Part shown: positions 17,486-63,583 of the stretch, piece after piece
Layout of the letters: every line of letters begins with the position of its first letter
Position numbering within the stretch: position 1 is the stretch's first letter
From: Amphirosellinia nigrospora
Taxonomy: Eukaryota; Ascomycota; Sordariomycetes; Xylariales; Xylariaceae
Reading direction: 5' to 3'
Assembly (NCBI GenBank): GCA_004123355.1
Contig: SCHM01000002.1
Span: 9,211,569 to 9,275,568 of the forward strand
DNA length: 64,000 nucleotides
Made by a program: the position numbers and the translations under genes
The notes under the pieces: generated by a model
Told to the model about the DNA's origin: nothing
What the model saw: only the letters and a program-made list of their open reading frames with translations
Databases searched by the model: none

Positions 17486-18136
17486 ATGGCTCCTGACATG
17501 CCGATCACTCCTCAAGCGAAGAAAGCTCACCTCAAAATCGCTGGCCTGTTGTAATATCGGGACCTTCAGGTGTCGGCAAAGGAACACTCGCTGAAAAACT
17601 TTTTGATGCGCATCCCGGCGTTTCGCTTCCACTGTTTCTCACACAACTCGGGCACCACGCAGTGGTGAAGTGGAGGGCATAAGCTACTATTTCATCTCCG
17701 TCGCCGAATTTGAGCTTCTCATCTCCCAAAATGCATTTGTGGAGTATACTTCTTTTAGCGGCCATTACTACGGCACCAGCAACACACCATCTTAGAACAA
17801 CCGCAAAGGCTTAGTAGTCGTATTAGACATTGAGATGCATGGTGTAAAGCAAATAAAAAAGCCCCCGGATTTAATGCCCGATTTGCTTTTATTAAGCCGC
17901 CGAGCATGGAAGAGCTGGAAGCACGGCTGAGGGGACGTGGTACAGAAAGCGAGGAAAGTATTCAGAAGAGGCTTACAAGGGCGGAAGCTGAGCTTGAATA
18001 TTCCAAAACATCCGGAGTTCACGATATCATTATCACTAACGATAATATCGAAGAAGCGTTTAAAAAGCTCGATAGATATATTTTTGCGGTTCGACGGCAT
18101 AAATCATGCTTTGGCGTCCCTTGTCGCATGTCTTAG
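17486..18136 (+). CDS. GUK1: Guanylate kinase (frame interrupted, probably by homopolymer errors)
   Basis: Converts GMP plus ATP to GDP plus ADP; essential and cytosolic. The P-loop reads [19 protein letters not shown] from about 17549, followed in other frames by [20 protein letters not shown] (GMP-binding region), [25 protein letters not shown] and, from 17906, the lid and C-terminal part [19 protein letters not shown]...[12 protein letters not shown]. Every feature of the family is present in order. Frame changes fall at mononucleotide runs (about 17534, 17627, 17781, 17799, 17808, 17870), each repaired by one extra base, and no conserved residue is lost. Start chosen at the ATG 17486 ([16 protein letters not shown]), typical of fungal orthologues. 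The length, about 218 codons, is slightly long, so the C-terminal end may also be shifted. It could instead be a dead copy, which I judge less likely. Confidence 0.75.
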
Positions 18137-18732
18137 CCTTTTGTGTTGCTACGAGCAGTAACTATGTTATGAGCTACCAGTATGACGGCCTGTTAAGGAG
18201 ACCTTATACGGTGGTGCCTTATAGTAAGGCCAAGCTAGCCTGGGAGAGACTGTAGGAAGGTTTGGGGCAAGCCACACGGACCTAAAAGCACACAAGGAGT
18301 GATTAGATGATAACGGGTTAGCAGATCAATGCATCAGTTTGATGAGCCAGGGAGCAAGGCATTGATGATTGAAGGAGGAATTATACACTCTACCACTGTT
18401 TCTTATGTTTAAGTATTCATTTATTAAACCAGGAGTCAACTTAAATCCATAACTGGTTCTTCAAATCCACTGTAACAGACAACTTTTTTCTTTACTGTAT
18501 TTGTTTAGTTGTTTCGACCATAAGAACATAAACCGCAATACTCCTATTTGCTACAGAAACCTGTGCGCCGTAGGTGAGTCGTTACATGGCATCATGTATA
18601 TTTGATTTCTTCTAGTTAGAACTGGTCCGTACAAGCTGGGGTATTGTTTCCCAGAGCTCGCGTTAACACAACAAAGGCACGATTCACCTAGCAAGACATC
18701 GCTTCTATTGGAGTTGCCCAAGTAGATCAATG
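18137..18732. other. Intergenic stretch
   Basis: No coding frame, RNA gene or repeat is recognisable between the guanylate kinase gene and the solo LTR. Confidence 0.5.
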
Positions 18733-18737
18733 TGGAC

Positions 18738-24650: not shown

Positions 24651-25098
24651 GTGTCCCAAAGCGAGGATGGTGGTTTCTGTAAGATCAAAAAAAACATGGG
24701 TATTCGTAGAGAGGATATAATTATATAGGCTAGCTTCGCATCACCACGAATAGTGATACCTTACCAACCCCGACATAATGTGTTGTGAACTGGTTTTCAC
24801 ACTCTCTTTGTCAGTCGCAGGCCGTGAAAAGTCACGCAAGTTGTTTGAACGAGCGAGTAGTAAATAGCGCCATGATTCCTTGCCAAGAATTGAGTGTGGC
24901 CCTGCGGTACTATTATTATGGAGATACCCGGCGCTGTTCCCGGCCGATGCGGGGTCTCCACACACGGGCAGCGCACACGGGTACCTACTTCAATACTTCA
25001 TCCAATAAATAGCACACGACACCACCACGCTCCTCATCAATCTTGTTTCGTTCGGAAGAAGCTCACCACGAGTAGCCATCCCCTAATCCCGCGCAAAA
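24651..25098. other. Intergenic region upstream of SPC19
   Basis: No supported gene. The longer open frame that runs from 24894 into the SPC19 coding sequence is an upstream extension through the promoter and the intron and is not a real start. Confidence 0.5.
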
Positions 25099-25703
25099 AT
25101 GGCCACCGCAACCTACAGCGACTGCGTCGCCGCCCTACGGACATCGCTATCCTTCCTCGAATCGTCCGTGGCCACGCTGGAGAACGGCGTCTCCGACTTT
25201 CCACGTCTCGTAAGCGTATTAAAGACAGCCAGGGTACATACATACATACACACACGAGCTCCTCCCTAATCAACCATCTGACCGTAAGACTAACCTTTAC
25301 ACACCACCAACAGCACTACGAACTGATCCCCCAGAGCACGCTCCAAACCGCCGAGGCCTCCCTCCGCTCCGAGCTAGCGCCCGCGATATCGACGCTGCTG
25401 GACCGAGCAGACGCACACATCGACCGCGTGGACCGGCGCGTCGACTCTCTCAAGGCGCGCGCCGAGCTGCAGCAAGGTCGTCTCGACAACGACGGCAACG
25501 GCAACGGCAACGGCAACAACAACAACTCGCGTGCCTCCCGCCACCAATCTAGCGCCAAGAGCGCCCAGCTCGACGGCAGCGCGAAGCTGCGCGCCCGCGT
25601 GCTGAAGCAGCGTCGCGAGGCGCTGCAGTACAGCGTGGAGCGCCTCGAGCTCGAGGTCCTGCAGAAGGAGCGCGAGCTGAGGAAGAGGTTGGATACTACG
25701 TGA
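25099..25703 (+). CDS. SPC19: DASH complex subunit Spc19
   Basis: A subunit of the fungal DASH/Dam1 ring that couples kinetochores to spindle microtubules. Exon 1 (25099-25233) encodes MATATYSDCVAALRTSLSFL through NGVSDFPRLVSVLKTAR. An 80-bp intron (25234-25313, donor GTACAT, branch GACTAAC, acceptor CAACAG) is followed by exon 2 (25314-25703) starting HYELIPQSTLQTAEASL. The product is 174 residues, close to the 165 of yeast Spc19. The N-terminal C(V)xxLRxSLxxL helix, the FPRL...T(A)RHxEL(I/L)P junction, and the C-terminal coiled coil (RREALQYSVERLELEV) match the family. An Asn/Gly-rich insertion (about residues 107-125) separates the two helical parts. The frame is intact. Confidence 0.88.
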
Positions 25704-31834: not shown

Positions 31835-32541
31835 TCAGATCTCGTCTCTGGCTTTCTCGAGCCTCCTTACGGCCCGCTCGACTCTCTCCATACGACCTTC
31901 GACGCCAGCCACAAAATCTGAGTATCCCATGACGTTTTTTATACCACCTACGAACAACTATCTCGCTGCGCGATCGGAGATCTGCGATCTCGGCGGCTTG
32001 TGTCAACTGTGTTGCTTCAATGCCCTTCATTCGCGGTACCAAGGCCGCTAAGCCAGCACTAAGGGCTGGGTCGGGGATGGGTGTATCAGATATTGCTGTC
32101 AGCGCCGAAGCCGTAGCGGGGTATGAAGAGGCGGTGGAAAGAACTATGGCGCGCAGTGCTTCTAGAGACAGCTCGGGTGGAGGTTGAGAGGCCGGGGGGG
32201 TTGAAATAGAGTTGGATTGGATTTATCTGTATATAATCAGTCGCAATTCAAGGAGACGTGGCAAAAGCATGTGCATAGAGGATTCGGTCGGTAGTGTGTG
32301 GACTCTACCAATTAAGAAAGCGATGGGCGAGATTTAACTTACAAAGTTTGAGGAGCTCGCCGTACACACGTATATGTTGTAGCAATTTGGAGAAGCGGTG
32401 TTCGAGGTCTTGCAAGCTTCGTGTTGCTGATGCCGTGGACTGGGTGACCGAGTTACCGTACAAGAGATGCTCGAGCCGCAAGAGTCGTCCCTCCAGAAGC
32501 GAGATAGTTGATAGCGTGGTGTCGTCGATTTTAGAGTCCAT
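31835..32541 (-). CDS. ro-3: Dynactin subunit p22/p24 (RO-3 type), frame interrupted
   Basis: A dynactin shoulder subunit, needed for dynein-driven nuclear distribution in filamentous fungi. Exon 1 (32541-32343) encodes MDSKIDDTTLSTISLLEGRL, the RLEHLLYGN segment and RVYGELLKL. A 116-bp intron (GTAAGT...ATACAG) leads to exon 2 at 32226: YKSNPTLFQPP, then in the next frame ASQPPPELSLEALRAIVL, TPIPDPALSAGLAALVPRMK, GIEATQLTQAAEIADLRSRS and RRWY. After a second shift comes MGYSDFVAGVEGRMERVERA and RRLEKARDEI, with the stop at 31835. The two shifts coincide with a run of seven G (32194-32200) and of six T (31935-31940) on the plus strand. About 196 residues, right for the family. I treat it as a gene with base-count errors, though decay cannot be excluded. 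Confidence 0.75.
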
Positions 32542-33347
32542 CGTGTTATTCGCTCGGTTGGAATTGGCTGTTTTTGTTTATAGGATTCATACACTAACGT
32601 ATGGCGTGAAATTCAAGATACCTAGGTAGAGTTGTGTTGTTTATTCTTAACAGGGACAGCGACGCCTGACAGCGGCAAGAATGATATAATGGGTCAAGTT
32701 TGCAAACGCGGTTTGTAATTTCCCCAGATTCGGGAACTCTAGGTCAGGGGTGTTGAATGGGTCTAGCCCAGCAAAACGGAATTTAATTGGCTCGAGACCC
32801 TGTTTTAGCTCCCTTTTTTGACGCTTTTTCAGGGCACCCTTGCCGAAAGCTTCCAAGGTTCCAATCTCGTAATCCCACTAGTGCTACTTTTTAGTGGTTC
32901 CGATGACAGCTGTCATGTCATCGGTGCCTGCCCACGAAGACCAGAGCACGTCGATCGTTGTCCAAGATTGCTGCCATCGTCAGGCCAGCTTCAATCCAGA
33001 CTCGTTCCACCTTCCCAGACATCTCCAATCCGCTCTAGGCACCGTCCGACCATAATCAATTCCCACGTACCGATTATCGCCTTCGCGCCCCTGCGCCTCA
33101 GCGTATCTATACTTATTTCGCGGCTCTTCATAATTAGGACTAGCAGAACTTCTAAACATTCGGTCAAACCAGAGGTGTAGGCGTAACCGAGCGACGAACG
33201 AGGAATCGAGAGCGAGCCGGGTAGGTGTGTCGCGTCGCCGTCGTCGTCGTTATCGTGCTTAAAAGGACTTTGGCCAGCCGGACTCTCGCTGTTCGTCTGG
33301 TCCGGGGCTGGTCCTCTGGGCTATGCCGAATTATTCCGCAATCACAC
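32542..33347. other. Divergent intergenic region
   Basis: Lies between the minus-strand RO-3 gene and the plus-strand transporter. Open frames here (for example 32818-33180 plus) lack motifs. It presumably holds both promoters; no specific element can be named. Confidence 0.45.
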
Positions 33348-35210
33348 ATGGGGTACTACCTCGACCGCGGGGACCAGTGCATCCGGCGATATGACAAGGT
33401 ATATTACCTCACACTTCACTTTGCGCGGCTTTGTTGTTCAGTGCTGATACCTTGATTGTTTTTCTAGAACTCGGAGAGGGAAGCCTCACCCGAAAGATGG
33501 CGGTAGCGGGTCCGCTACGATGTTCAGCAGCGTGACCAATCTGCTAAACACTAGTACGTTGCGTTATACAGCCTGCCGTCTTCGTCGACAACCACTTCAT
33601 AGTGAACTCTAGATCTGACATGTCTTCTAGTCCTGGGCGCCGGTACCCTTGCCATGCCCTCCGCGCTCTCGCATTTTGGGATGGTGCTTGGAACCTTCGT
33701 CATCCTATGGTCAGGGTTCACTTCTGCCTTCGGGCTTTATCTACAATCACGATGCGCTCGATATCTAGACCGTGGCTCCTCGTCCTTCTTTGCGCTGTCG
33801 CAGATGACGTATCCGAATGCTGCCGTTATTTTCGATGCCGCTATAGCGATCAAGTGTTTCGGGGTTGGCGTATCATACATGATCATCATAGGGGATCTGA
33901 TGCCAGGTTTGTCGAAGGTTTCGATACTAGGGCAGCGTCCATCGCCTACCTGATGGACCGGAATTTTTGGATTACCGTATTCATGCTGGCGATAATCCCT
34001 TTGAGCTTTCTCCGTCGCCTCGACTCGCTCAAATACACCAGTATCATCGCTCTTGTTGCTATTGGCTACCTGATTATACTCGTTGTGTACCATTTTGCTT
34101 CCGACTCTCTAGCACCAAGAGACAAGATTCGTGTCATTGAATGGGCCGGGCCTGTTGAGGCCCTTGCCAGCTTGCCCGTGGTTATTTTTGCCTATACATG
34201 TCATCAGAATATGTTCTCGATTCTTAACGAGATCAAGGACAATTCCCCGAAGAGGTAATGCAACATAAAACATTTGCGACTCCAGCTTCTCTCCAACTTA
34301 CTAATTCGTTACGCAGCATACTTGGCGTAATTTCTTCCAGTATTGGCTCTGCTGCTGGAGTCTACGTTCTGGTGTCAATCACTGGTTACTTATCATTTGG
34401 CAATGATATTACTGGAAACATTGTTTCAATGTGTATGCACTCTCTCTGCCCGCATCGAAATTTCCCCTGTGTAACTAACAAATCGTCAAAGATGCACCAT
34501 CGATTGCTTCTACAATTGCAAAAGCTGCCATTGTCATTCTTGTTACCTTTTCTGTTCCCTTACAGATACATCCGTGCCGGGCATCTGTGGACGCCGTGTT
34601 GAAATGGCGTCCAAACGCTATCCCTGGCACACAGGGTCGAACAGGCTCCCCATCTAGTAGATTACTTCTCCCGACGGCGACGCGGTCGGACCATGGATCG
34701 GCGCCTATGTCGGAGCTACGCTTCGCCATTCTTACAACAATTCTACTTGTCCTAGCCTACACTGTGGCTCTAACAGTCACCTCATTAGAGAGGGTCCTCG
34801 CCTATGTCGGGTCCACAGGAAGCACTGCCATTAGCTTTATCCTGCCTGGCCTATTTTACTATAAGATCTCCGACCCCGACTCCATTCACCACCAACGGCT
34901 AACTAAAGAAGACGATGATGTTATGTCAGCGGCTGCCTCAGAAGTTGACAACAGTGACGCTACTGACGACGAGGGGGCTGAGGGCCTACTGGGTGCAAGT
35001 GTTTCGAGCATCCGCAGTAGCGGAAGTGGTACCAACGCAAGAAGCAAAACCTCGAAATTACCATGGCGATGGCGGACGAAGTGGAGATGGGACATGGAAC
35101 ACCTGAATCCTGTCCATCTTCGAAGAGCTTCCTTAGCATTGGCCCTTTACGGCGCGTGCGTCATGTTAGTATGCCTAACCATGAACCTAGTGGGCGCAAA
35201 TACCAATTAA
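33348..35210 (+). CDS. AVT-type vacuolar amino acid transporter (AAAP family)
   Basis: A proton-coupled amino acid transporter of the AVT group, expected in the vacuolar membrane. Proposed introns: 33399-33467, 33554-33630 (GTACGT...TTCTAG), 34255-34316 (GTAATG...ACGCAG) and 34433-34491 (GTATGC...CAAAG with a CTAAC branch). Conserved segments in order: MFSSVTNLLNT then ILGAGTLAMPSALSHFGMVL, GFGL-like TSAFGLYLQSRCARYLDRG, FFALSQMTYPNAAVIFDA, IKCFGVGVSYMIIIGDLMPG, FVEGFDTRAASIAYLMDRNF, SLPVVIFAYTCHQNMFSILN, GYLSFGNDITGNIV, VPLQIHPCRASVD and, near the end, a serine/acid-rich loop before the last helix. One lost G near 33906 breaks the frame in exon 3. Exon 1 (MGYYLDRGDQCIRRYDK) joins out of phase, so the start is uncertain; ATG 33522 is an alternative. 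Confidence 0.78.
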
Positions 35211-36582
35211 CCATGATTGAATATCATGGGTGATATGCAGGCATTAGAATCGAATTTGTTCAATTCGAATTGTGCTTACTACTAACGATTGAAGGCTGCA
35301 TACCAGGAGTCGGTGCATTCATTGTATGACAAACTACCCTCATTATTGTGCATTGTTGGCGTTTCGGATGTATTTTATCTTTGGTCTTTCCCCGTTCTTC
35401 CACACATGGCCCGTTACATATCAGGATACATAATCTTTGAACCCATGTTTTACAATTCAGCCAGACCTTATGCAATACATAGTTATCTTTTGTAGACTTA
35501 GGTGTATCAACATTGAAACAATGTATTATCCCTATGCAAATCTCCCTCGTCGTCATTTATTCCACCTTAAAGTAGCAAGGCTAAACTTGAACTTCAGTAC
35601 ATACTTGACTAGGTTTCATCCATCAGTCCGATAGGCAAAGCCGACCACCTCATTCCTTGCGACGTTAAGCGCGTCTAACTCCATCCGCAATACACCATTC
35701 AACCGTCTTACGAACCGCGATATCTCAGGCCCATGATGCTATGGTTATGGCATAGCTGTAACTGTCGGCGCTTTCGGTTGTGACGATCCATTTACTTAAG
35801 CTGGCTTTCTACCCATGCGAGCACAATTAATACTGTCGGCCTACTTTCCCTGGTTCCCAACCATTATACAAGGTCCATTGTATGAACTTCTACAAGAACC
35901 ACAATCTTGTCAGGCGGAAAGAATATCCCGATGTAAGTGTCCTATTTTATTCAGAGGGGTCGCTCCCATCGAGGAATTACAACTAGACAGAGAGCTTTCT
36001 ATATGCTATAAGACCAAACTTAGGAGAAGCCGATGTCTAAACGGGGGATTCTTCTATACAGCTCAATATTGCCTTCCTCGAACTGCCCATATTCTCGCAG
36101 ATGTGTATCGTTGACTGTATAGCTACTGGTCTATTGCATCTATTCTGTCTCGGTTATAGATATTCTTTATAACGGGCTATGGGATGGTAAGATATGTCAG
36201 AAGACGATTCCAGCAGGTTAAGTCTATAACAATCGATTATCTAGGTTGGGTTCTATAGGAGTAGAAGAAGTGATATGGAATATACGGCTAGTGAGTATCC
36301 TCCAAAATATTGGCTGGCAAGTATTCTAACTGACAGCTACCTTTAGGTCTACCTAGCATCTCATCCTTTTGCTTATTAGGGATATGGCAGGCAAAAAAAA
36401 GAAAGGTCAGTTTTAAATAAACCAGAGCCTGAATCGAACCTATAGCGTCGAGAAGAGCAATAAGCAATCAACTGCTTATGTGGTAAGGAGTCTAGGTGCT
36501 GAAGAAGCACCTAGGTATGTGCGTACCTACCTCGTTGATGCGTAGCCTCGCGCCTGCCCATTGGTTGCCCCGGCTACCTCAG
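35211..36582. other. Intergenic stretch
   Basis: No supported coding frame. A short near-palindrome around 35250-35275 (aatcgaatttgttcaattcg) lies after the transporter stop and could act in 3' end formation, but this is weak. Confidence 0.4.
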
Positions 36583-36587
36583 CCACG

Positions 36588-36621
36588 TACCTACCTACCT
36601 ACCTACCTACACCTACCTACG
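36588..36621. repeat. TACC microsatellite
   Basis: Roughly seven to eight imperfect copies of the tetranucleotide TACC/CTAC, set in a region with many CACCTAGGTA words. Simple-sequence repeat only. Confidence 0.85.
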
Positions 36622-36919
36622 CACCTAGGTAACAGGGTCAGGTATATAATTAAAAAAACCAGTTCCCTCTAACAACAAGCACCCAAGTAGTCAACCGGTT
36701 AGGTCACCACACCCTCGATCCGCGGGGCTTAGGGTTCAGATACCGGTGCCGCCGCAACAAGTTTGATCCTAACAAGCGCTAGGAGCCTTGGGAAGAACTT
36801 GGTCTGGCAACAGATCTGTGTGGACAGAGGCGGACCACGACCGGCAAGAAATACCCAATCCGAAAGGAGGGCGCGCTGTAGCCCGGGGGGCTTATTGACA
36901 CCCCGGGGCAGGGCGATTA

Positions 36920-37016
36920 ATTTTTTTTTTTTTTTAACTTTTTTTTTTTTGACATATTGTTCTTTTTTTAACCTCCCCCTTTTCTTGACTTTTTTTTTTT
37001 TGATATGTTTTCCTTC
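36920..37016. repeat. Poly-T/pyrimidine tracts
   Basis: Three T runs of 11-15 bases separated by short words (gacatattg near 36951, gatatgtt near 37000). The word TTGACTTTTT/TTTGACATA recurs. Given the base-count problems elsewhere in the window, the exact run lengths are unreliable. Confidence 0.7.
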
Positions 37017-37128
37017 CCTTATTCTTCTTTGATTGATACTCATTGAACTCTGGCTACCTTATTTAGATGTAGCTGTAGTTGTGTGTAGCACGTAAAAAAG
37101 ATGCTGGTGAAGGAGTGCCTCTAAAAGT

Positions 37129-37165
37129 CGGCGCTGATGGGATTCGAACCCATTGCTTCTGTAAA
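37129..37165 (-). ncRNA. tRNA 3'-half relic
   Basis: On the minus strand a perfect T arm (ATGGG TTCGAAT CCCAT at 37137-37153) is followed by a 7-base acceptor strand CAGCGCC, a discriminator G and, a few bases on, TTTT as for a Pol III stop. A possible long variable arm lies just upstream, suggesting a class II (Ser or Leu) tRNA. The partner acceptor strand GGCGCTG is not present within 130 bp upstream, so a complete cloverleaf cannot be drawn. It is most likely a truncated tRNA copy. Confidence 0.45.
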
Positions 37166-37210
37166 AGGGGCTCAGGGGCTCGGCTGCAGCTTGATGAATT
37201 ATTGCAGCAC

Positions 37211-37947: not shown

Positions 37948-39506
37948 TTAGCCTTTGTAAGGGCTGGGCCCGATCATGAGCTCGGGCTTGACAAGCGTAT
38001 CGAACTCATCCGATGTCAAAGCGTTGAGCTCCAAAGCGCTATCTTTCAGATTAAGACCCTTCTTGTGCGCGTTCTTGGCAACCTTGGAAGCCATGTCATA
38101 GCCAATCTTAGGGTTGAGGCAAGTTACAAGCATGAGACTGGTAGGTAATCGTTAGCGTGGGCGGCTCACAATCGACAAAAATACAAAATTCTACTTACGA
38201 TTCCCTCATGATGCTGGCGATCTTCTCCTCATTAGCCTGAAGACCTACAACTAGGTTCTTCTCGAACGAACGCATGCCGTCCGAAAGCAGCCTGACGCTG
38301 TGGAGCAGGTTGCGGATGAGGGGTTTATACACATTGAGCTCAAACTGGCCGTTCATGCCACCAATCGTTGTAGCGACGTGGTTACCCATGACCTGGGCGC
38401 AAACCATGGTCAAGGCCTCGCACTGAGTCGGGTTCACCTTGCCAGGCATGATACTGGAACCAGGCTCGTTCTCTGGCAGCGCCAGCTCGCCAAGGCCGCA
38501 GCGAGGACCACTGCCGAGGTAGCGGATATCCTGGGCAATCTTGGTGAGTGACGCAGCTAAAGTGTTGAGGGAGCCTGAAGCCTGAACGATGGCATCATGG
38601 GCGGCGAGTGACTCGAATTTGTTAGGCGCCGTCTTGAACTCGGTACCAGTCATTTTGCTGACCTCCTCCGCAATGGCCTCGGCAAAGCCCTCGAAGGTAT
38701 TAATACCTGTTCCAACGGCGGTACCACCCTGCGCCAATAACCTCAGATCCGGGATTGAGCTCTCCACACGCTTGATGCCAAAGTCTAGTTGTGCGACGTA
38801 ACCGGAGAATTCTTGAGCGAGTGTCAAAGGTGTGGCGTCCTGGAGATGTGTTCGTCCGATCTTGATGATATTCTTGGCCTCGAAGTCATCAACCTTCTTC
38901 TGCAGGGCGTCGCGGAGGCTCTTGAGCGAAGGTAGCAGTGATTCTTCAATCTCAAGAACAGCAGCAATGTGCATGACGGTGGGAAAGGTGTCGTTGGACG
39001 AAGCGGATCGGTTCACATGGTCGTTGGGGTGAACGGGCTTCTTGCTGCCCATGGTGCCGCCCAGGATCTCGATGGCTCGGTTCGAAATGACTTCGTTGGC
39101 GTTCATGTTGGACTGTGTGCCAGAGCCAGTCTGCCAGACGACCAAGGGGAAGTGGTCAATGAGCTTCAGGTCGGCGACCTCGGCGGCGGCCTGCTGGATG
39201 GCTTTGCCAACCTTCTCATCTAGAAGCGCGATCGCAACAGTAAGTTTCTTGTCCTCGCAAGCTAACTCCAAGTGACGTCACAAAGACGGGAAGTGGTTTG
39301 CATACCAAGTCCGTATCGCATGTTCACGGTAGCGGCCGCGCCCTTCAAAATACCAAATGCCCTTACGATTGGGGTGGCATCCGGTCTTGGGGCTGGTTGA
39401 TGCGGAAGTTCTCGAGCGATCGCTCCGTTTGAGCTCCCCAGTACTTGTCGGCGGGGACCTGGATCTCGCCAAAGGCATCGCTCTCTGTTCTCGTGTTGGC
39501 GGCCAT
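37948..39506 (-). CDS. FUM1: Fumarate hydratase, class II
   Basis: Interconverts fumarate and L-malate in the TCA cycle (mitochondria) and in the cytosol. Exons are 39506-39306, 39219-38199 and 38137-37948 (about 470 residues). Introns are 86 bp (GTATGC...TTCTAG) and 61 bp (GTAAGT...ACCAG). Exon 1 reads [20 protein letters not shown] and continues to [17 protein letters not shown]. One C is missing from a run at 39371-39374 (GGGG on the plus strand), after which [20 protein letters not shown] continues in the next frame. Hallmarks: [40 protein letters not shown] and the family signature [15 protein letters not shown]. An upstream ATG at 39747 opens MLRSVRVTAGAGRNILGPRT, a basic, mitochondrial-presequence-like peptide that is not directly in frame, so a longer mitochondrial form is possible. 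Transcribed away from SQT1. Confidence 0.9.
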
Positions 39507-39747
39507 TCTAGCAGATGTGGCGTGGAGAGATTCGTTGAAATTGTAGGGGATATTTTGATTTGGTAGAGAGGCTTCTGCTGCTGCTATTGCTACTAGGTTT
39601 CAAGGATGTGTATGACGAAGTGGAGGGGGCGGAGGCGCACGAGGAGGTGGTGGTGCTGGAGTATTTGCATGTGAGTGCTCGTGGAGCCGTCCTCGGCCCC
39701 AGAATGTTTCGGCCTGCGCCGGCTGTAACTCGTACCGATCGAAGCAT

Positions 39748-40400
39748 GGCGGCAGTTGCTTCCCTGGAGATGCGTTCGTACTAGTAAAAGCGTGCAGAAA
39801 GCGCAACCAATTGGAGAACCTAAAAATATGTGGTTTAGTGAATGGTAGTTATGAAGCTTGTATCGCAAAACTGTAATGCGGCTGTCGCAAACTGGCTGTA
39901 CAGGAGGATGGTGTTGAGAAAAAAAAAGGCGCAAAACAGAACACAACGCTTTCGATTGCCAGAAAATTATCGTCGAGCTTCACATTAACCCATCGGGAAT
40001 TGCGCCCAGCTCTCACACATTGCCAGCTGTCTCCGAAAAGCCCCGAAAAGCGGAGCCACAGCTCCCCTGCCTACCCCTGATGATGAACTCCCGGGTAGGC
40101 TCTCTCAAATTCTAAGCCTGTGATGGCGGGGTCGTCGGATCTAATTTAGTACAGTAGCTGTCGACGGGAAGGTATTACCCCACCATCCAACGCGATGGCA
40201 ATTGTCTAAAAAAAAGTTGGGCGATTGATTATCAAGCAACAAAATTCACTTTCGATAAACGTCCATGACTAGAAATAGATCCCCGAAAGTCTTGGATTTA
40301 TAACCGCTCGTCCAGCAAGGATTCTGACTAAGATCTACTCAAATCACTTCATCTTTCCTTCCCGTCTTTTTGCAACATACTATCAAGCACACAGTCCACC
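39748..40400. promoter_or_regulatory. Bidirectional promoter region of FUM1 and SQT1
   Basis: The space between the divergent fumarase and SQT1 genes. No coding frame is supported. A CCAAT-type word (accaattgg at 39808, reading CCAAT on both strands) lies on the fumarase side. Confidence 0.4.
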
Positions 40401-41885
40401 ATGTCTGCCCCTCATCAAGACGACATGGACGATACGCCCGAGATGCTCGATGTAGATGATGCGCTGGAAGAGATCGATGATGTGGAGGGTGATGTTGCCA
40501 TGGATTCGGACGACGAAGAGCCAATAGAGATCAGCCTGCATAACGACAGCATCGCCTATTTTGACGCACAAAAGATTCCGTGTTTGCTATTGCGCAGCAT
40601 CCCACACAACCAACCCTGATCGCAACCGGTGGAAGCGAGGGCGAAGAAGACAACGCGCCAGGAAAGGGTTACGTCTTCGACACGAGCCCCGTTGTCGGCA
40701 GACCCGTCCTGCCCGCCAGCTACAACGCAGACCCGAATGCGACTCAACAGAAGAGCACCGAGCTTCAACCACTATTCACAATCGAGGGTCATACTGATTC
40801 CATCAACGCCTTAGCATTTACATTACCCCGTGGCGATTTTCTGGTGTCAGGTGGCTTAGATGGAAAATTGCGCGCTTACAAACTATCGGTTAATGCGCAT
40901 AACAAAGCATCCTTCGCCTTCGTAGCCGAAGCTGCAGAAGTACCCGAGATTAACTGGCTTGCGCCGTGTCCGGTGCCATCCAATTCGCAAACGAGCGTAC
41001 CAAACACGATAGCACTGGGAGCTTCGGATGGCTCGGTGTGGGTTTACACAATCGATCCAGCGACGAATCAAATCCGCTCCAGATCGTCCAAAGCTATTTC
41101 CTACATACCGAATCGTGCACCGCCGGCGCATGGTCTCCCGACGGAAAATTCCTTGCCACAGTCTCTGAGGATAGCTCACTGCTTGTCTGGGATGTCTGGG
41201 GCGAGGCCGCAGCGAAGGGTCTTACCAACGATAACGGGCAAACAGTTGTTTCGCTCAATAGCTCCGACCAGCGATTCGCCGTTGAGGGTGGATTATATTC
41301 CGTGGCGATTGACCCGAAGACCTCGTTTGTCGCAGTTGGTGGTGCAGGCGGCGCGATAAAGATCGTTGGTTTACCTCGCTTAGGCGCCGACGGTCAATCG
41401 GCCTCGAGCAAGCAAGGCAAGACGAAAGGGAAGGGCGCCGACGCTGGAGGGAGTCAGGGCGGCACGATCTTAGCGGACTTGCACACTCAGGGCGATGGTA
41501 TCGAGACCCTTAGTTTCTCGCCCAATAACCCGCTGCTTGCCGCGGGCAGTGTTGATGGTAGCATTGTTATCTACGATACTTCACGCCGTTTCGCAGTAAG
41601 AAGACACATAAAAGATGCGCACGAAGAGTTTAGCGTTGTTAAAGTGGAATTCGTTCCCAGCTTTGGAGATGGTTGGTTATTGACGAGTTGTGGTATGGAT
41701 GGTGTCGTCCGCCGATGGGATGTCCGTGGCGCCGCTGGCGCCTCAACAGAGAGTAGGGTAAAGGAATGGAAGGACACCGCGGCGACGGCGAAGGTGGTGG
41801 TGTGTTGGGCTTTGTTCAAGGTAGTACGGGCGAACGCGTCGTAACAGCAGGCGATGATGGTATTGTTTTGGTGTTTGAGGCATAG
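40401..41885 (+). CDS. SQT1: WD40 ribosome-assembly chaperone Sqt1/AAMP homologue, frame interrupted
   Basis: Yeast Sqt1 is the dedicated chaperone of ribosomal protein L10 (uL16); AAMP is the animal relative. The acidic N-terminus (MSAPHQDDMDDTPEMLDVDD...) is followed by the first WD repeat in a new frame, DSVFAIAQHPTQPTLIATGG. Later repeats read GHTDSINALAFTLPRGDFLVSGG...LRAYK, ALGASDGSVWVYT, AGAWSPDGKFLATVSEDSSL...VWDVWG, IETLSFSPNNPLLAAGSVDG and GWLLTSCGMDGVVRRWDVRG. The last is GERVVTAGDDGIVLVFEA, ending at 41885. No intron is evident. Three frame changes sit at runs: AAAA 40570-40573, AAA 41070-41072 and GG 41772-41773. All are consistent with one missing base. About 494 residues when read through. 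Confidence 0.82.
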
Positions 41886-42377
41886 GTAGCTCAACTACCA
41901 TTGCGATAAAGAATAGGATTACGCCTCTCGATGCGAAGCCTATATTGCTCGATTCCATCCTGTCACTACACATGGACTCAGCAGAAGGACAAAGGAGATA
42001 CGATTCGGGATGCTTTTTGCTACGGCTAATGGGGGAATATGGCTTGGCATTGCCCATGATAGAACAACTAATCTACACTTCCATGATGTACCAAATCGGG
42101 TAACACCTACTTAACGACGTACTAATGAAGAATAAGAGATCACCCTGGTTTTAAGTACTCGTTACCGACATGTGTCCCAGTGGAGTTTTCTTGGGTGCGT
42201 GTGAGAGTTCATTTATGCTAGATTACCCGCTGCCCCATTCCCCTAAGGAAAGCTATACAGGCGTTTGGGTATAAGTTAATAGCTTTTTAATAGGATTTTG
42301 GCCTTGGACAAGTACTAATTTCAGTACGGAGGTACTTGGAATATCACTGCACTAGCTGTTCTAGAACCACCTCGACA
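41886..42377. other. Convergent intergenic region
   Basis: Between the 3' ends of SQT1 and the GH31 gene. No further feature supported. Confidence 0.5.
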
Positions 42378-44963
42378 TCAACTCACGGTAACTTCAAACG
42401 GTCCATTCAAACTCCAGTTTCCTTCCTTCGTGACTGGCTCTTCAGCACCGAGGATCTTCACGCTCTCGACGACCACGTCGGTCTCGTAGCCGAAGGTCCC
42501 GTCCGCCTTCAAGGTCGTGCCATCCCACGTGAAACTGATATCCGAGTACTTCCCGCCCACATCCAAGCTGTCGCCGTCGTCAAGGTACAGCGACCCGCTC
42601 GCTTTCCCGTCTTTGCCCGGGGCGACGACAAGGGTGAAGTCGTTCTGGCGCACGAGCGCGGTGGTGTTACCCGAGGCGCTTCGTAGCGGTAGCACGGTGC
42701 CCGCGAATGTGTACGGGAATATCCGTGAAAGAAACATCATCCACCGTGACGGTGGCGCCCTTCCCCTCGACGCGCTCGAGGGTCCAGAAGTCGTAGAAGA
42801 CGTCGTCGGGGAGGTAGAACGTCACCGAGGTAGCGTCGTCGTCCGTGACGGGGGACACGAGCAAGGCGTCCCGTAAAACCATTGCAGGTCTATTCCGAAC
42901 GTCTCGGCATCGTTCGGGTAGATGAAGAAGAGCGGGTTCACGGGCGGTTCGCCGGTAGACGCGGCCCGATGCATGGCCGTGTAGATGTAGTCGAGCAGCC
43001 TGTAGCGCGCGTCGATGGCCTTCCGCGCCGCCTGCGTCGTCAGCTCCCAGAGGTAGAACTCCTGGTTCGGGGCCGAGATGTCGGCGTGGTTGCGGTAGAA
43101 GGGCTGGAAGGCGGCGAGCATGGCCAGCGCGCGCACATCTTCTCCTGCGCGTCGCTGTTGAATCCGCAGACGTCGGACCCACCATCGGCATCGCGTGCAC
43201 CGCTGCGAACGAGAGCATCTGGCTGATTGTTGTGCGATAATCAGCCCAGTTGCTGGCATTGTCGCCGAACCAGTGCGCGGCCTTGGTGCCTGCGCCCGCG
43301 AACGTCGAGCGCGTTAACACGAAGGGGCGTGAGTTGGGACGGCGGGTGAGCAGGGAGTTGCGCGTCGCCGTGATCATCATTAGCCCGTGGATGTTGTGGG
43401 TGTCGTATTGCACGCTCCCGTCCCTATTCGTGTTGTTCGTGTATAGCGTCCTGATACTTAGGTCGCCCTGGTGGTTGCCGATGCGATACTTTGGGTTGAA
43501 GAGGTCTCGATCCGGAAGTCCTTTCATGTCTCCCTCGGCAGCCCGGCGCATATATCGCCCCTTGCGAGTTGTGCTAGGGGCGCGCTTGCTGTTGGCTTCA
43601 GAGGGATCGCAGTTCGTGTCGGCGCAAAAGTTAGACACCTCATTCATGTCGTTCCATGCGCCGTCGATATCGAGGCCCGTCTCTGGGTCAAAGAACCGTT
43701 TGATCTCGTCAGTCCACCAGTCCTGCGTTTTAGGTGCGAACCAGTCGGGCCAGACCACTTCACCAGCCCACTGTTCGCCACGATATAGTGACCGTCAGCA
43801 GCCTTGATGAATGCATCGACCTCTTTACCCCTTGAGTATGGGGCATAGCTATCTGAGTATTGGACACCTGGGTCGAGCATCATCACGTACTTCTGACCTC
43901 TCGTGTGCAATTCTGCAACAAGTTCTCTCATCTTGTCGAGCGGGTAGTTCACAGGATCGGTGGTGAAAATGCGTCGCTTGTCCATATAGTCGATATCAGC
44001 CCATAGCACCTCTAGAGGGATGTTAGCCGCGGAGTAGTTTGCGACCACTGCCGCTTCAGTTTGAACGTCTGGCCATCCGTACTTGCACTGCTGGAATCCG
44101 AATGTCCAGTACGATACCATCGCAGGCAGGCCCACCACCTCAGCATACTGCTTGCTGACATCTGTAGGGCTAGGACCGGAGAGGAAAAAAAGTCTAAAAT
44201 ACCACCGAGAATGTTGTATTCGAGAAATTGGTCGCCCGAACTCGTCTTGTTAATGTTGATGTCCATCCCGTTAGCGCTAAGGAGAGCGACGCCATGGCTT
44301 CCGGACTCTCCGCGGTGTTCTATATAATTGGGATGGCTTCCGTATAGGTTACTGTTACGTGGGATGAATGGGGATTCCGCATTCCAGAGTGTACGCCGAT
44401 AGTTGTCGGTCGGCAATCGGAAAGAATCCGAATGCTCTCCAAGTCCGTATATGTTTGGGTCCTTGGGCAGCTGAGTTCGGACGTAGACATATTGTGACTC
44501 AAAGACCAACTTAGTACCGTTTGTGTTGAATAAGACTTCATCAGAGCCGGTGCGTGAGACAGAGAATGAAAAAGGGTCCTCTGTCAGCTTGAACTGGAGC
44601 GCGGAATCTGATGCAAGGACCCCCTGGCTGGAGGGCCTTGGCAGAACGGATTCCTGGATTTGATATACCTGGAGACCAGCATCATAAATCTTGACGTGGA
44701 GCCGAGAGTCTGTAGATCGGTTAGAAATCCAATCTCAAATGGCTGAAGTTTGAAGACGAACCTTGCTGATATTCAACGAGCAGCTTAAGATCAGTAAGAT
44801 CAGTACTATAGAGATTGCATGCCGTGCCCGCGAGACTCAAGTCTGCAGTGAGCTTCCCGTCGCTTTCGACGACATTGGATGCAGTGTATCCGGGGCAATC
44901 GTCAACTGAAGCCGACAAGGCCCCAGAAGCCAAAGCTGCCAACAAATATGGGGAAAACCTCAT
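42378..44963 (-). CDS. Secreted alpha-glucosidase, glycoside hydrolase family 31, frame interrupted
   Basis: Releases glucose from the non-reducing ends of maltose, starch-derived or related alpha-glucosides outside the cell. Exon 1 (44963-44762) begins [20 protein letters not shown], a clear signal peptide. A 52-bp intron with TCTAAC branch is followed by exon 2 (44709-42378). Family landmarks: [44 protein letters not shown], the nucleophile segment [12 protein letters not shown], the acid/base segment [71 protein letters not shown] and [10 protein letters not shown]. About 846 residues. Frame changes occur at 44185-44191, 43774, 43178, 43124, 42870 and 42700, all at mononucleotide runs with the conserved protein resuming in the next frame. 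It may be an AgdC-like enzyme; exact specificity cannot be told. Confidence 0.85.
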
Positions 44964-46830
44964 CGCGATCCACGTTCTCTTTATTAACCTATTGGTAAAA
45001 GGGAGGTGCTTGCGAGCTTAGGATTTCAGTATCGATTCCCGGTGAGGGACACATTCCAGTCGAGTTCATTTATAATTCATTTCGCTGCTACCATGCCGAT
45101 TCGGCAGGCTATCGTACTTGAGGCCATCGTCATCGATGGTGGTCGGCAATGGTATGCGGGCACCGTATATCAATGCAACATATTACAATGCGGGGAAGTG
45201 GGCAGTGCGCAGATCGACCTCATTGTGGGGGTCAATACAACAGGACATTTCTTGGATTCATCTCAATAAGGCTGGTACCAAGGATATATCGGTCCGTTTC
45301 AGTTGGGGGAAAAGGGTTATATGTCCAAATCGTTTGCTAACATGCTCAACTGATTACCAATACCCTAACGATGGCTACGCACAGGCTCTAATATGCCAAT
45401 TGACAGTTCGTATAGAATGGACTAGATCTCTCAAGTGTGACATCATGGGGAAAAGTCTTGAGTTTGTGTAGCATGTGCTGATAAAACTATGATACGATGA
45501 ATCGATGCCTAATATTACCCCGGCCCCATATAGGAGGGCGGGACATTATGTGAGCTAAGGCCAGCAAAGCCGTACCCGCCTTGCAACTATGCTAATGTCG
45601 CTACCTTGGTAAAGTTGTTGAACATTAGCTTTCATATACGTAGACTTACAAGTAATAGCCATGTCAACCCGCCGGAGCATCTATATTGGTCTTGATCTGG
45701 CTTGTACGATAGTACTTGGCATTGAAGCGGTGACTATTAGAGGATAATGCTATGTTACATGGTACGCTTCTATCATGCCAGCGCCCTACCGTTAACATGG
45801 CCGATTTGAAGCGACATGTGATTTCAGCCCGCCGTTACCGGATAGTAACGGTTCAAATTCTCGGCCCCCGAGCGACTTGGTCATGATGCTGTGAAGTGGC
45901 CATCATAACCCATCCACAGTTTCTAATTGTTAAGTACACCGCTTCGGCAATACCACCTGTCAAGGACCCTGTGATATATCGGGCAGGCCATCTATACTTG
46001 TTGCTGCGCAAAAGTCGCCAATAAAACTACCGTTTTACATGTACACGGCGATATACAGATTGTCTCTGTGCTTCATGACTTCGAGACACTATCGTCACCT
46101 TTTTAACTACTGACGTTCTCCCTGGAGTGTCTGGGAGGCAAAGAAGTTTTAGATTGTGTATCTAGCTTTGAGTAGCTTCTGAAGGTCTTGAGGCCTTTGA
46201 TGATGATAATAATAACAATAATGATAGTAGGAGTTATACTATACCCTGGTGAAAAACTCCTACGAAGGTTTATACACCAATGAAGATGGCGATACATACT
46301 AATACTGGTCTTATTTGCTTGTCAAAAAAGAACTATGTTGCTGATTTTCATCACGTTGAGTTGTGCTATATCGGCAACTATCATGTTATATTAGTTCCAC
46401 TTTTGATCACTCTACCTGCCTAAAAGGAAGTTAGTTGTATCGAAAGTTACGGCCCAACATTGTGAACCGTAGGGGCATAAACTGTACATAATGTCTAACG
46501 TGGGGGTGCAGCGCCTAGGGTACCAGATATAGTTCGCCGAAGGTGTAGTTTCCCAACTTGGATTATGTGATTCATAATCACCGGCAACGTGGCGACCTCT
46601 TTCTGGCGAGAGCGGGAAAACAAAATAAAGCAGAGGTCAACACTTAATATTCCGGACGAATGTCGCACCATGGTACTGCCCCTGATGCAATTAGTAATAT
46701 ATTCACTCAGGTCATAAACACTATAGTGCCTCGCATGTCTGCCTCCTGTATCTCTATCGACTGAAGAGACATTTCATTAAGAATAGCCAATGCCAACTTC
46801 GTAATGTTTGTGAGTTGCATATATCAAGTG
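44964..46830. other. Intergenic region upstream of the GH31 gene
   Basis: Nearly 1.9 kb with only short conflicting frames. A small ATC/ATT-type microsatellite lies at about 46199-46225. No gene supported. Confidence 0.5.
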
Positions 46831-54257: not shown

Positions 54258-56051
54258 TCAGGCACATAACGGCTTAAGTTTCAGGAGGAGGCCATTCGAA
54301 GGCTTGATGGTGATAGCACCCTTTGGTAGAATTTTCGATTCCTCCATGGCCAACTCCCAAGAGAAGTTACGGATCATGGAGGCGAGTAGACAGCGCATTT
54401 CCGCTTTGGCGAAACCCTGTCCTATACAGCTTCGTGGGCCATGGAGAAAAGTCAAGAACTCGTAGTTGCTGTTGGCGCCGCCATTTGAATTCGGCTTGCC
54501 GGCCGTTATCCAACGCTCGGGGCGGAACTGGCCCGCATCGGGACCCCAGAGGTCAGGGGAGCGGTTCATTTGCCACATCGAGAGAATTATTATCACCCCT
54601 TTGGGAATGACCTGGCCCGCGAGGCTTGAATCACGGATAGCTTGGCGCATTGTCAATGGTACCGTCGGTATAGACGCAACGTCTCGTTCATAATGCCGTT
54701 TAGATATGGCAGTGGCTCCAAAATACCACCGAAATCAGTTGATTTATCAATCTTCGAGTCATCTGGCAGTGCGTGTCGAATCTCGTCTCGGAGCATATCT
54801 TGAAGTTCTGGGTATTTGGCAAGCAAGTAACATGCCCAGCTTAGAGCGGAAGACGTGGTCTCGTGTCTGATTAAATAATATTGCGGTTAGCCTAGTTCTA
54901 AAGTGTAGTAGAGTTTGAGATTAGACCGTTTTGCTATATGCAGAACGTACCCGGCAGCCAAGAAGGTTAAAAGCTGGTCCCTAAGTTGAAGATCGGTAAA
55001 GTTACCCGACTGAATAAGAAGTGATAAAACGTCAAAGTGGTTGTCTTTCGAATCAGCGATTGCGTCCTTCTTTTCTTGTATCATCGGCATGCAAAGACTA
55101 CTAAGAGTGGTCGTTAAGTATCTGAATAAACTGTTCATCTTCCACGGGAGTAGTCGAACGAAAGATAAACCAAACAATAGCGAGGACATAGCAAACACAA
55201 GCTTCGCCGGTGCCGGCTCAAGAAGCTGCTCGTAGATGCCAAGCAGTGGATCTTCTGCTTTCTTCAGCGTGTTAAACTCTCGACCCATGCCTGCTACCCC
55301 GATGATATCAAGAGTGACCTTACTAGTCCAATTTGAGAGGTCGATTATCCCAGTGCCTTTGCCCTCACCATTCTCAAGGGCATCTTTGAGTGCTTTGGAC
55401 ATGAGCACAGACTTTTCCCACATCATGGGGTACAAGTCCTTGATATGACGGAAGCTAAAGGCTGGCATGGTATTCTTCCGTAGAAATTTGTGCTCGTCTC
55501 CCTCGACCATAATAAGTCCATCGCCAAGTATATGGCGCAGTAGTTCGCTGAGTTTTGGTGGCTTGATGAAGTCATATGCTTTGTGGACGAGCAAATCCGG
55601 CAGCATCCGTGGTTTAGTGATTAACACCTGAAAATCAAAAGCACTGAGATTGAGAATATCTTGATTTGGGTACTTCTTGACAAGATCGAGAAAGAGGTCT
55701 CCTCCAGGCCGACCGCTGACGACCAGAGAGCGATGAGTGACACTGAGAAAGTTCTAATACCTAGTGAGTAAATGATTTATGTTACTTGGCAATATTTGCA
55801 AATAGCTTTCTACTTACTCTTGGGCCATCAAGGTGTCTTAGCGGGCTGAGCAATATTGGGTAGAGGAGACCCCAAAATAAAGCAGCGAATGCATAATTTG
55901 CAAGGAAGATGACGGCTGCGATATCCAGATGAGTACCGAAGTTGAATATCTTGGGGAACACATCAGCATAGAGCTTGATAACGAGCAGGGACTCTGCTGT
56001 CGCTATAAGGGTGAGGCTTGGGAAGCTGAAGATCTGAGCTGCTACACCCAT
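54258..56051 (-). CDS. Cytochrome P450 monooxygenase
   Basis: A haem-thiolate monooxygenase anchored in the ER. Exons are 56051-55818, 55753-54951 and 54866-54258 (about 548 residues). Introns are 64 bp (GTAAGT...TATTAG) and 84 bp (GTACGT...AATCAG, CTAAC branch). Two hydrophobic N-terminal stretches (LTLIATAESLLVIKL and AAVIFLANYAFAALFWGLLY) precede the proline-rich hinge. The second intron splits the I-helix oxygen-binding motif AAG/HETTSSALSWACY. ExxR is NETLRLYP, the PERF-like segment is FRPERW, and the haem loop is FLHGPRSCIGQGFAKAE with the cysteine ligand. One C is missing in a run at 54667-54668, between RLYP and TVPLTMRQA. Family number and substrate cannot be assigned. It lies head-away from the GNAT gene and next to a Zn2Cys6 regulator. 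Confidence 0.9.
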
Positions 56052-59250: not shown

Positions 59251-59312
59251 TATTTCACATTGCATCTTCCTGGATGACATGTTGAGAGTACATCACCAAT
59301 AACTCATTCATC

Positions 59313-60404
59313 ATGGCTTCTTCGGCACTGTATTTACCTGTTCATGGGCTCGCGGGGTCGCTACGCGGCGTCGTTTTCTCGCCACTCATATCTGGACCAC
59401 TTCTCTTTGCGGTCATGTACGCTCCAGATGCCGTACGCCGTGTGGTGTCAGATTTTGTGGGCAGACTGCCTGGTTGGCGTATACCGTCAACGAATTCCGA
59501 CCTGTCGACCGCCAAGAAAGTGCTAGGTGTGTTGTTCGCGCTGAGCATCGCGCGCCGCCTGAATCGGGCTCTGAACAATGTGGCCGCCAACTCGTGGCGT
59601 TTGACAGCAAGCAAAGGATGGGATTGGCCCAATGAAATCGCGGTCATCACTGGCGGCTCGAGTGGAATTGGCAAGCTGGTTGTCGAGAAACTCGCTGCCT
59701 CTGGCATCCGTGTTGCGGTTCTGGATATCCAAGATCTGCCCAAATCCATGGAGAACAACACTCATATACGCTTCTTCAAGTGTGATGTGACGTCCTCCGA
59801 GTCAGTTGCGGAAGCTGCGGACTCTATCCGTCGAGAGATTGGACATCCGTCAATACTTATCAACAATGCCGGTATCACCAGCCCGAGTACCATTCTCAAA
59901 ATGCCGGAACCTTTCCTGCGCAAGATTTTCGGCGTCAACATCATGTCGCACTGGTTCACGACACAGCAGTTTCTCCCACATATGATCGAGACGAACAAGG
60001 GTCATATTGTCACAGTCGCCAGTCTGGCCTCCTTCGTGGCATTGCCTACCGCGGCCGATTATTCTGCCACCAAGGCGGCAGCTCTGTCTTTTCACGAATC
60101 ACTCACGTGCGAACTCAAGCACTGTTACAAGGCACCAAATGTCCTCACTACTGTCGTTCACCCCAATTACGTCCATACTCCGCTCATCGAGGACTATGTC
60201 AACCATTTGAAGAGCGCCGGTGTTCGTCTACTCACGAGTGAAGATGTTGCTGAGCCAACAGTAGCGCAGCTTAAGAGTCGACGCGGGGGCCAATTGATTA
60301 TACCCCGATCGACGAGCTTTATTTCCGGGATTAGAGGTTGGCCGACCTGGCTACAAGAACTACTAAGAGACGTTATGGGACGCTCCTCACATGGGTCGCC
60401 ATAG
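59313..60404 (+). CDS. Short-chain dehydrogenase/reductase, membrane-anchored (17beta-HSD11/RDH-like)
   Basis: An NAD(P)-dependent oxidoreductase acting on lipophilic alcohols or ketones. A single intact exon of 363 residues. Hydrophobic segments at about residues 21-37 and 70-80 precede the Rossmann domain, suggesting attachment to ER or lipid droplets. The cofactor motif TGGSSGIG is at 113-120, an acidic residue in AVLDIQD follows the second strand, then CDVT, NNAG at 184-187, catalytic Ser237 (VASLAS), and Tyr250/Lys254 in YSATK. The C-terminal segment has EDVAEPTVAQLKSRRGGQLI and IPRSTSFISGIRGWP, typical of the DHRS3/SDR16C-like fungal group. The start ATG 59313 is the only one giving the full hydrophobic leader. 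No frame break. Divergent from the Zn2Cys6 regulator. Confidence 0.92.
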   Translation: MASSALYLPVHGLAGSLRGVVFSPLISGPLLFAVMYAPDAVRRVVSDFVGRLPGWRIPSTNSDLSTAKKVLGVLFALSIARRLNRALNNVAANSWRLTASKGWDWPNEIAVITGGSSGIGKLVVEKLAASGIRVAVLDIQDLPKSMENNTHIRFFKCDVTSSESVAEAADSIRREIGHPSILINNAGITSPSTILKMPEPFLRKIFGVNIMSHWFTTQQFLPHMIETNKGHIVTVASLASFVALPTAADYSATKAAALSFHESLTCELKHCYKAPNVLTTVVHPNYVHTPLIEDYVNHLKSAGVRLLTSEDVAEPTVAQLKSRRGGQLIIPRSTSFISGIRGWPTWLQELLRDVMGRSSHGSP

Positions 60405-62105
60405 ATTATCAAGTAATGCACAATATCTCTGCAACACTTTCTAGATGAACTTCAATTCTGAATAGTTGTCTAAGACTATGGTCTAGTGTTACGAGCTATC
60501 TTGATAGATTGCCATGTGCTTAAAAGACTGTTGTTTATGTCGTACTCGCAGCTTACAAAACTCGTTATTCCGCTCCTTGATGCTTACTAAGTCTTCTACA
60601 CCACTTATTTAACCATGGGCGGCCATTAAGAGAACCGTAACTACACACTAACGCATCTTCTTCAACCCCGCAATCAAAGTAAGTTAGTGAGGTGTGCTAA
60701 TCTGTTGCCTACTCGAGACCAGGCCATGAATATGATCACACTAGTGAGGCCTGCTTTTAGCTCCCCTACCATATCCCTAATCCCCAATTGGCTCCGGAGA
60801 TCGATATACGAAAGCGAGACCGAAATCGAATGCTTCAAGAGAAACGAGGCTATTTAGTTAGTCTAGACAAACAAGATACAGTGTAGGCCATTCTCCTTAG
60901 GCCATCAGGGGGTAACATCTACGGCCCCTTGACTCCAAGCTCCTATTCTTCCCTCCCACCCCTATTAAACTCGCTACCTGTTTCCTGGCATTACAGGTGG
61001 TACAATTCAATGACTTAAACTCGCTTTATTGCCTTACAGTTATTGTAAGTTTCGCAAAATTAGGATGTTGGATTAAAGTTATAAACTTGTTCGAAAGCGT
61101 CTGTCTACATAATCCATCTGCTTTAGGAGTTCTAAGCATCAAGTGTGCATTTTAACATTGCTCTTGCTTCTAAGCTGTAGTTCACCTCTTTAAAGCGATA
61201 AGATCCCGACTTCTTAACTCATATTATCGGGTGACGCGGCAGGGGGGAAATCGGCGCTCGGATTGCTCCGCTACATCCGGCACCCGCGGCGATCGCTCTG
61301 TGGACTCCGTACAGCTGTGCAGGAAAAGACCGGATTGACCCCATATACCACCAAAAGTCTACAATTTCAGAGGCCGATAGCCTAGCCAGAAAATATGAAA
61401 AATAAGAAATAAGCCGGAGATTATTATAAATAAAAACGTGAAATTTATTTCGTCTTTATCTTTTGAATTTTCTTGTTTATACGCCGAAGAAGTAATAATG
61501 CACCAAAAAAACCCACACAACGCCCGTCGACCCTAGTGTCTCACATTCAAAAGAGCCGTGCCTCGGTTTCGCAAAGCTGACCAATCACACACTAGTGCTA
61601 AGACAAGGGTGGCAGCAACCGCTTCCCCTTTCAGGGCTAGTTTGCGACTTGCAACTTCGACACCCAACAACTCATCATACTCAAAGTTCAGGCAACCGCA
61701 AACAGAAAACGCCCAAGCATTCGACTACGTCCAGGCAGAAACATTCACATCAATGATCCGGATTCTTCGGCCTTGATATCGACCCGGGCCGGATAGGGAG
61801 TCCATGATGTGACGGGCGGCCTCAATAATCTTCGCGATTGATGGCGCTATCATGTTGATGAGCCGGAATCGAATCGTTCCATCCTCGTTCCAATGTCCAC
61901 TCCTATGATACACCTTGTGGAGCCGGTATCGGAGCCCGAGGATTCCAGTTTCTCTCTTAACTATACCGTAAAGTGCTCAGGAAAAGCTCAGTGGTCTACC
62001 TGCAACTAGCTGCTTGCTTTCAATGCATCTACCAATTTTTTGAGTCAAAACCCCTATACAGGATACAGACTCCTCATCATCGGTCTTACAGCCTCAATTC
62101 ATCTT
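60405..62105. other. Intergenic stretch between SDR and flavin monooxygenase
   Basis: About 1.7 kb. No strong coding frame. A minus-strand frame at 61725-61913 (EDGTIRFRLINMIAPSIAKI) has plausible composition but is short and unassigned. The AT-rich segment at 61380-61480 has no repeat partner in the window. Confidence 0.45.
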
Positions 62106-63583
62106 ATGGACACCAAACGTGCCGTCGGCCAGTCGTCGGCGACGCCTGCTACGCTCGACTTTGATGTTATCATCGTCGGTGCGGGAATTTCTGGCATCAA
62201 CGCAGCCTATCGCATCCAGAATCAGGAGCCTCGCGCCTAAAATATGTCATTCTCGAAGGCCGTGACGCGTTGGGAGGCACTTGGGATCTCTTCCGGTACC
62301 CAGGTATCAGATCTGACTCAGATATATTCACATTTGGCTTCTCTTGGAATCCGTTCGGAGCTACAAACACGATGGCATCTGGAGATGAGATAAAGAATTA
62401 CATGGCCCGGTCAGCCCAGTCTGCTGGCATAGATCAACATATCCGCTATCGTCATAAGGTCAAGGCCGCGGACTGGCAGTCGAAAGAGCAAAGTTGGGTC
62501 TTCCAGGTCAATGTAGCGGGTCAGGAGAAGCCGGTCACCTATAGATCGCGTTTTGCACTTCTTGGTACGGGATACTACGACTACGAAACACCTCTACAAA
62601 CTACCATCCCTGGCATCGAGGGCTTCCAGGGCAAAGTCATTCATCCACAATTTTGGCCCGAGGACTACGATTATACAGGCAAAGATGTCGTAGTTATAGG
62701 AAGCGGGGCTACCGCCATCACCATCATCCCGTCTATTACCGACAAGGCTAAACGCGCGACGATGCTACAGAGAAGCCCTGGGTATATCGCCTCTCTGCCT
62801 ACAAGCAATTTCTGGACGAGACTGTTATTCACCATCCTGCCGTAACTCTGGCAAACAGACTGAACAGATATCGGTGGCTCTTTCGAAGCTATGTATCTCA
62901 CCTTGTCTGCAAGTATTATCCTGATCGGGTTAAGAAGGCTATTAGAAAGGCAACAATCGCACAACTTCCCCATCCATCAAGTGGACCCGCATTTCAAACG
63001 CGTTATAACCCATGGGAGCAGCGGTTCTGTGCGTGCAGGAACGGCGACTTCTTCGCCGCTCTTCGCTCCGGCAAAGCGGACGTCGTTACCGATAAGATCA
63101 AGACGGTCACCGCAAACAGCATCGAGCTTGAGTCTGGGGCGGCCTACACCCCGACGTCATTGTGACAGCCACAGGCCTAAAGCTGAGATTTGGTGGAGGC
63201 ATCAAGTTATCAGTGGATGGCAATTACATCGAAGCGGGCGAGAAATTCGCATGGAAGGCAGCCATGCTTGAAGGCGTCCCAAACCTTTTTTTTATGCTGG
63301 GCTACGAGAACGCATCATGGACGCTCGGTGCGGATGTCGGCGCTCATCTTTTCATGCGATTGCTTCGCTTGATGAAAGAGAAACACGCCAAGGTCATCGT
63401 GCCAAAGTCTCCGCGCCTATGGAAGAGAAACCCATGATGAACTTATCGTCGACGTATCTTGTTAAGGCTGGCAGGGTATTGCCTCAGGGCGGGACTGGGC
63501 AATGGAGCCCCAAAACCAATTACTTTGCAGATATGGCGGGAGCCAAATGGGGAAATATTACCCAAGACCTGACATTCATGTAG
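62106..63583 (+). CDS. Baeyer-Villiger-type flavin monooxygenase, frame interrupted
   Basis: A class B flavoprotein monooxygenase that inserts oxygen next to ketones or oxidises heteroatoms using FAD and NADPH. It begins MDTKRAVGQSSATPATLDFD, with the FAD Rossmann motif VIIVGAGISG (GxGxxG at residues 25-30). Then come ILEGRDALGGTWDLFRYPGI, RSDSDIFTFGFSW, the Baeyer-Villiger fingerprint FQGKVIHPQFWP, and the second dinucleotide motif KDVVVIGSGATAI. Later parts are RYNPWEQRFCACRNGDFF, VVTDKI, PDVIVTATGLKLRFGGGI and ML/GYENASWTLGADV, ending at MAGAKWGNITQDLTFM. About 494 residues. Four frame changes fall at 62225, 62840, 63136 and 63416, each repaired by one extra base of a short run. No intron is evident. 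Substrate unknown. Confidence 0.85.

Follow-up and report, generated by a model that had tools for sequence, protein, structure and literature searches.

Genes at the locus and their frame changes

The window, by which we mean the whole 64,000-nucleotide stretch of DNA analysed here (C4:9211569-9275568), belongs to an assembly of 48.1 Mb in 11 contigs, which are labelled C1, C4 and so on below. Its first part is AT-rich, with a GC content of 7–25% per 2 kb over window bases 1-16000, and the remainder has 41–56% GC. The AT-rich block also takes in the 8 kb just upstream (L068; 15.5% GC), and over these 24 kb there is a RIP-like signature (TpA/ApT 1.26, (CpA+TpG)/(ApC+GpT) 0.36).

Three adjoining window genes could be aligned with close relatives: a fumarate hydratase gene (FUM1; 37951..39747, minus strand), a gene for the ribosome-assembly WD40 protein SQT1 (40400..41883, approximate ends, plus strand) and a GH31 alpha-glucosidase gene (42378..44963, approximate ends, minus strand). 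In Xylaria multiplex the same three genes carry consecutive locus tags in the same order (GH31 g6984, SQT1 g6985, fumarase g6986), so the window genes appear to occupy an orthologous locus. Identity to the best Xylaria protein was 95.3% for FUM1, 95.7% for SQT1 and 91.7% for GH31, and the fumarase frame was 92–99% identical to four named Xylaria proteins among the matches listed, which marks the organism as a Xylaria-like fungus.

Frame changes in these genes were called with a custom protein-to-DNA alignment that allowed frame changes, gaps and GT-AG introns, using Xylaria proteins as references. The first-pass annotation of this DNA had counted some 27 frame changes in ten genes, a number that was not reproduced; the three genes with close references held 11 over 1886 aligned codons (5.66 kb coding), and in-frame stops were absent from all 1886 codons. 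FUM1 (555 codons) contributed two changes, a loss near 39374 and a gain near 39534, along with two GT-AG introns, the first of which has ends that vary with the reference. SQT1 (492 codons) is intronless and showed three losses, near 40569, 41060 and 41770. GH31 (839 codons, one 52-nt intron) accounted for the other six: five losses (near 44188, 43790, 43182, 43123 and 42872) and, near 42702, a two-base loss or its equivalent. One-base losses, which had been presented as the systematic pattern, were thus the main type (9 of 11) and not the sole one: the change at 39534 is a gain of one base, and that at 42702 is a two-base loss or the equivalent gain of one. Each of the 11 spans one or two bases, leaving no space for an intron. 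Further references of 84–96% identity (two more each for FUM1 and GH31, one more for SQT1) reproduced these frame changes, with a shift of 3 bases in one case, and differed in small gaps.

The remaining window genes were read mainly from Pfam segments. An amino-acid transporter gene (PF01490; 33630..34907, plus strand) loses the frame once, between 33917 and 33926, at a switch that leaves a gap of 8 nt, and shows two further gaps of 74 nt each, which are intron-sized. Cytochrome P450 pieces (54258..55753, minus strand) show a frame loss at about 54668-54671 and an intron-sized gap of 81 nt at 54866-54946, with the same frame on either side. A short-chain dehydrogenase (59286..60404, plus strand) is a single open frame of 372 amino acids, unbroken within its Pfam match. 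Pieces of a flavin monooxygenase lie in several frames over 62010..63583 (plus strand); the first two match flavoprotein or FMO families, and neither the profile search nor solved structures gave a match for the pieces at 62752-63165 and 63132-63437. In the DASH complex Spc19 gene (window 25087-25703), two frames overlap in the profile across a 50-nt gap, which makes an intron likelier there than a frame loss.

An extra guanylate kinase paralogue lies close to the AT-rich block, and its matched part (17542..18085, plus strand) contains Pfam PF00625 in three frames. Pfam recognises all three pieces, although the first is weak and falls under its cut-off. The gene was aligned to an intact guanylate kinase on the same contig (C4:627k), to which it is 57–59% identical; that gene has two exons round a 169-nt GT-AG gap and no frame change, and the reference was made by joining the exons of that same gene. 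With a reference this distant, the number of breaks (two to four) and the presence of a stop depend on the penalty: strict penalties gave two frame losses and one in-frame stop, and a lenient penalty left no stop and gave four frame changes, three of them one-base losses and the fourth a loss of two bases or an equivalent gain. The genome yielded three guanylate kinase loci, and at the third (C1:4191991-4195272) the guanylate kinase domain follows a THO complex subunit 1 domain in a single open frame.

Twelve positions had been listed in advance as examples of breaks, and nine of them have a frame change without intron room no more than about 20 bases away. Alignment to Xylaria proteins bore out 39371, 40570, 41070, 42870, 43178 and 44185, alignment to the other guanylate kinase of the genome bore out 17870, and arithmetic on Pfam segments bore out 33906 and 54667. 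The other three are unconfirmed, 17534 lying upstream of the aligned part and 62840 and 63416 having no usable reference. Some of the frame breaks attributed to the named genes proved to be introns (two in FUM1, one in GH31) or intron-like gaps (transporter, P450).

Homopolymer runs at the breaks

The breaks had been said to coincide with short mononucleotide runs, and this held as an enrichment weaker than the claim implied. For each break, the longest run touching its possible interval was compared with 20000 random position sets from the same coding sequences. The mean longest run was 3.0 at the 11 breaks versus 2.05 at random coding positions (P=0.001), and three of the 11 touched runs of at least four bases where 0.65 were expected (P=0.02); five touched only runs of one or two bases. 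Homopolymer under-calling therefore accounts for only part of the breaks. A pure under-calling model also fails for a minority of breaks, 2 of the 11 window changes and 4 of 17 in the sample from elsewhere described below, which are either gains or involve two bases. Runs of six or more bases are rare both in the window (48 kb covered) and in 72 kb of control sequence, which fits under-calling but is not decisive.

Broken genes elsewhere in the assembly

The first-pass annotation described the breaks within this stretch; they turned out to be a property of the whole assembly. Four protein families (CCT, HSP70, HSP90 and actin) were sampled from the best-scoring candidates only, so the 31 loci and 43 junctions obtained are a lower bound on loci. 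A frame change without room for an intron was found at 17 of the 43 junctions, in 12 of the 31 loci and on six contigs (C1, C4, C5, C6, C7 and C8). This strict set was defined by |d| of at most 4 and an absolute gap of at most 20 nt, a threshold chosen afterwards by reading the list, and the other 26 junctions (intron-sized, in frame or unclear) were excluded from the sign count. Thirteen of the 17 were of the loss type, one of these being a four-base shortfall. When the window and the other loci are combined, 22 of 28 changes are losses (P=0.002).

The chaperones HSP90, the HSP70s and CCT are essential, and the 12 broken loci include that of HSP90, four of the HSP70 family and five of CCT. 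HSP90 has a sole locus, which falls into four adjoining pieces with three breaks; the gaps between pieces are -2 to 4 nt, under intron length, and two of the three changes are gain-type or two-base losses. In-frame stops sit in some of the profile matches elsewhere, among them the first HSP90 piece, which holds two in-frame TAA codons; these stops weigh against indel error as the whole account. Four of the ten HSP70-family loci were aligned to each other's products, yielding two frame changes on C8 (presumably SSA), one on C5 (which we take to be BiP), two on C7 (presumably mitochondrial) and one on C1 (which we assume to be SSB-like). At least two non-self references showed each of these breaks. 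One gain and one loss were seen in a C1 paralogue of GH31 (50% identity).

Errors of this kind appear to be sparse and not universal, given that two TCP1-family loci on C6 each give one continuous match and that open frames as long as 790 and 771 amino acids occur in two of the control stretches. Open frames of at least 200 amino acids numbered 27 in the 72 kb control (nine 8-kb stretches) versus 14 in 48 kb of the window (P=0.27), so that frames are cut up to a similar extent in both. The rate of breaks was 1.94 per kb in the window versus 0.87 per kb in the four HSP70 loci (P=0.08), a comparison in which the references differ in closeness. Profile segments covering 35.9 kb gave 0.47 per kb, a rate not directly comparable with one from close references.

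Source of the breaks

Our data indicate that the breaks are almost certainly residual insertion-deletion errors, left in a probably long-read assembly whose consensus was insufficiently polished. They are mostly one-base losses, favour homopolymer runs and are spread genome-wide, with some 0.5 to 2 per kb of coding sequence; their source would presumably be long-read technology together with a lack of accurate polishing. Assembly error was already preferred to gene death in the first-pass annotation, and that judgement stands. Essential chaperone genes on six contigs are broken in the same way, the window genes with close references keep 92–96% identity and no stops between their breaks, and the fumarase finds no second match in the assembly, all of which argues for error over decay. 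Joint loss of fumarase, HSP90, these HSP70s and CCT is incompatible with life.

A similar profile is described for bacterial drafts. In the Kastor work, gene-fragmenting indel errors in long-read assemblies are mostly short indels tied to homopolymers, deletion errors go with runs two to eight bases long, a non-repeated base being lost in a small share of cases, and many genes are falsely labelled as pseudogenes, inflating pseudogene counts (PMC12007338). The error profile is the same here, but that account concerns small genomes, among them bacterial ones, with reads, whereas ours is an intron-bearing fungal genome in which the error source is inferred. The Polypolish paper names homopolymer-length errors as the most frequent kind left in long-read-only bacterial assemblies (PMC8812927); the error type is the same, though here it extends to runs of one or two bases and some gains. 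The breaks are a known kind of error, an ordinary artefact that reveals nothing new about the fungus. Until the assembly is polished, it gives wrong gene models, pseudogene calls, family counts and reading-frame claims at many loci.

The alternative that survives best, though it is unlikely, accepts that most breaks are assembly errors and holds that the extra guanylate kinase (17.5-18.1 kb) is a truly decaying paralogue. The first-pass annotation spoke of essential genes; that label does not apply to the guanylate kinase here, given the intact two-exon enzyme at C4:627k, the window gene being one of three loci. Its divergence from that enzyme, a density of breaks above that of the other window genes, the single stop seen under strict penalties and its position adjoining the AT-rich block are all consistent with decay, so that, judging from its sequence, this gene could be a real pseudogene. 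However, its breaks are loss-type or ambiguous, as an artefact would be, the domain is recognised in all three pieces, and both the break count and the stop shift with the penalty because the reference is distant.

Real gene decay across the segment, in which the stretch lost its function and gathers frameshifts, is very improbable. Many frame breaks do lie within 46 kb adjoining an AT-rich, RIP-like block, and the guanylate kinase there, an extra copy, is broken at least twice within about 550 nt. Yet 1886 codons without a stop and 92–96% identity between breaks are difficult to reconcile with lost function, as are the same kind of breaks in essential genes elsewhere, an HSP90 confined to one locus and a fumarase with no other match anywhere in the assembly. 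A duplicated, decaying segment was also considered and rejected: fumarase turned up once, and when 14 kb of the 46 kb (32501-46500) were compared as DNA with the assembly, no second copy emerged, the hits being limited to a short dispersed repeat and a 66% match in a GH31 paralogue. The dispersed repeat occupies window 45958-46083, at most about 126 bases, and has at least 38 other genomic matches of 72–90% identity.

Introns mistaken for frameshifts are harder still to credit as the source of the frame switches: the GT-AG introns of FUM1 and GH31 and the intron-sized gaps in the transporter (two of 74 nt) and P450 (one of 81 nt) show how such a misreading could arise, but the 11 counted changes span one or two bases, and three of them fall in the intronless SQT1. 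Least probable of all, to the point of being negligible, is that the assembled bases are right and the breaks in essential genes are corrected by RNA editing or translational frameshifting; if the bases were true, the genome would be an extreme case of recoding.

Consensus errors in this assembly may not be limited to one or two bases. At one break in an HSP70 locus on C7 (L058), profile arithmetic gives a shortfall of four bases, suggesting that longer consensus deletions may also occur.
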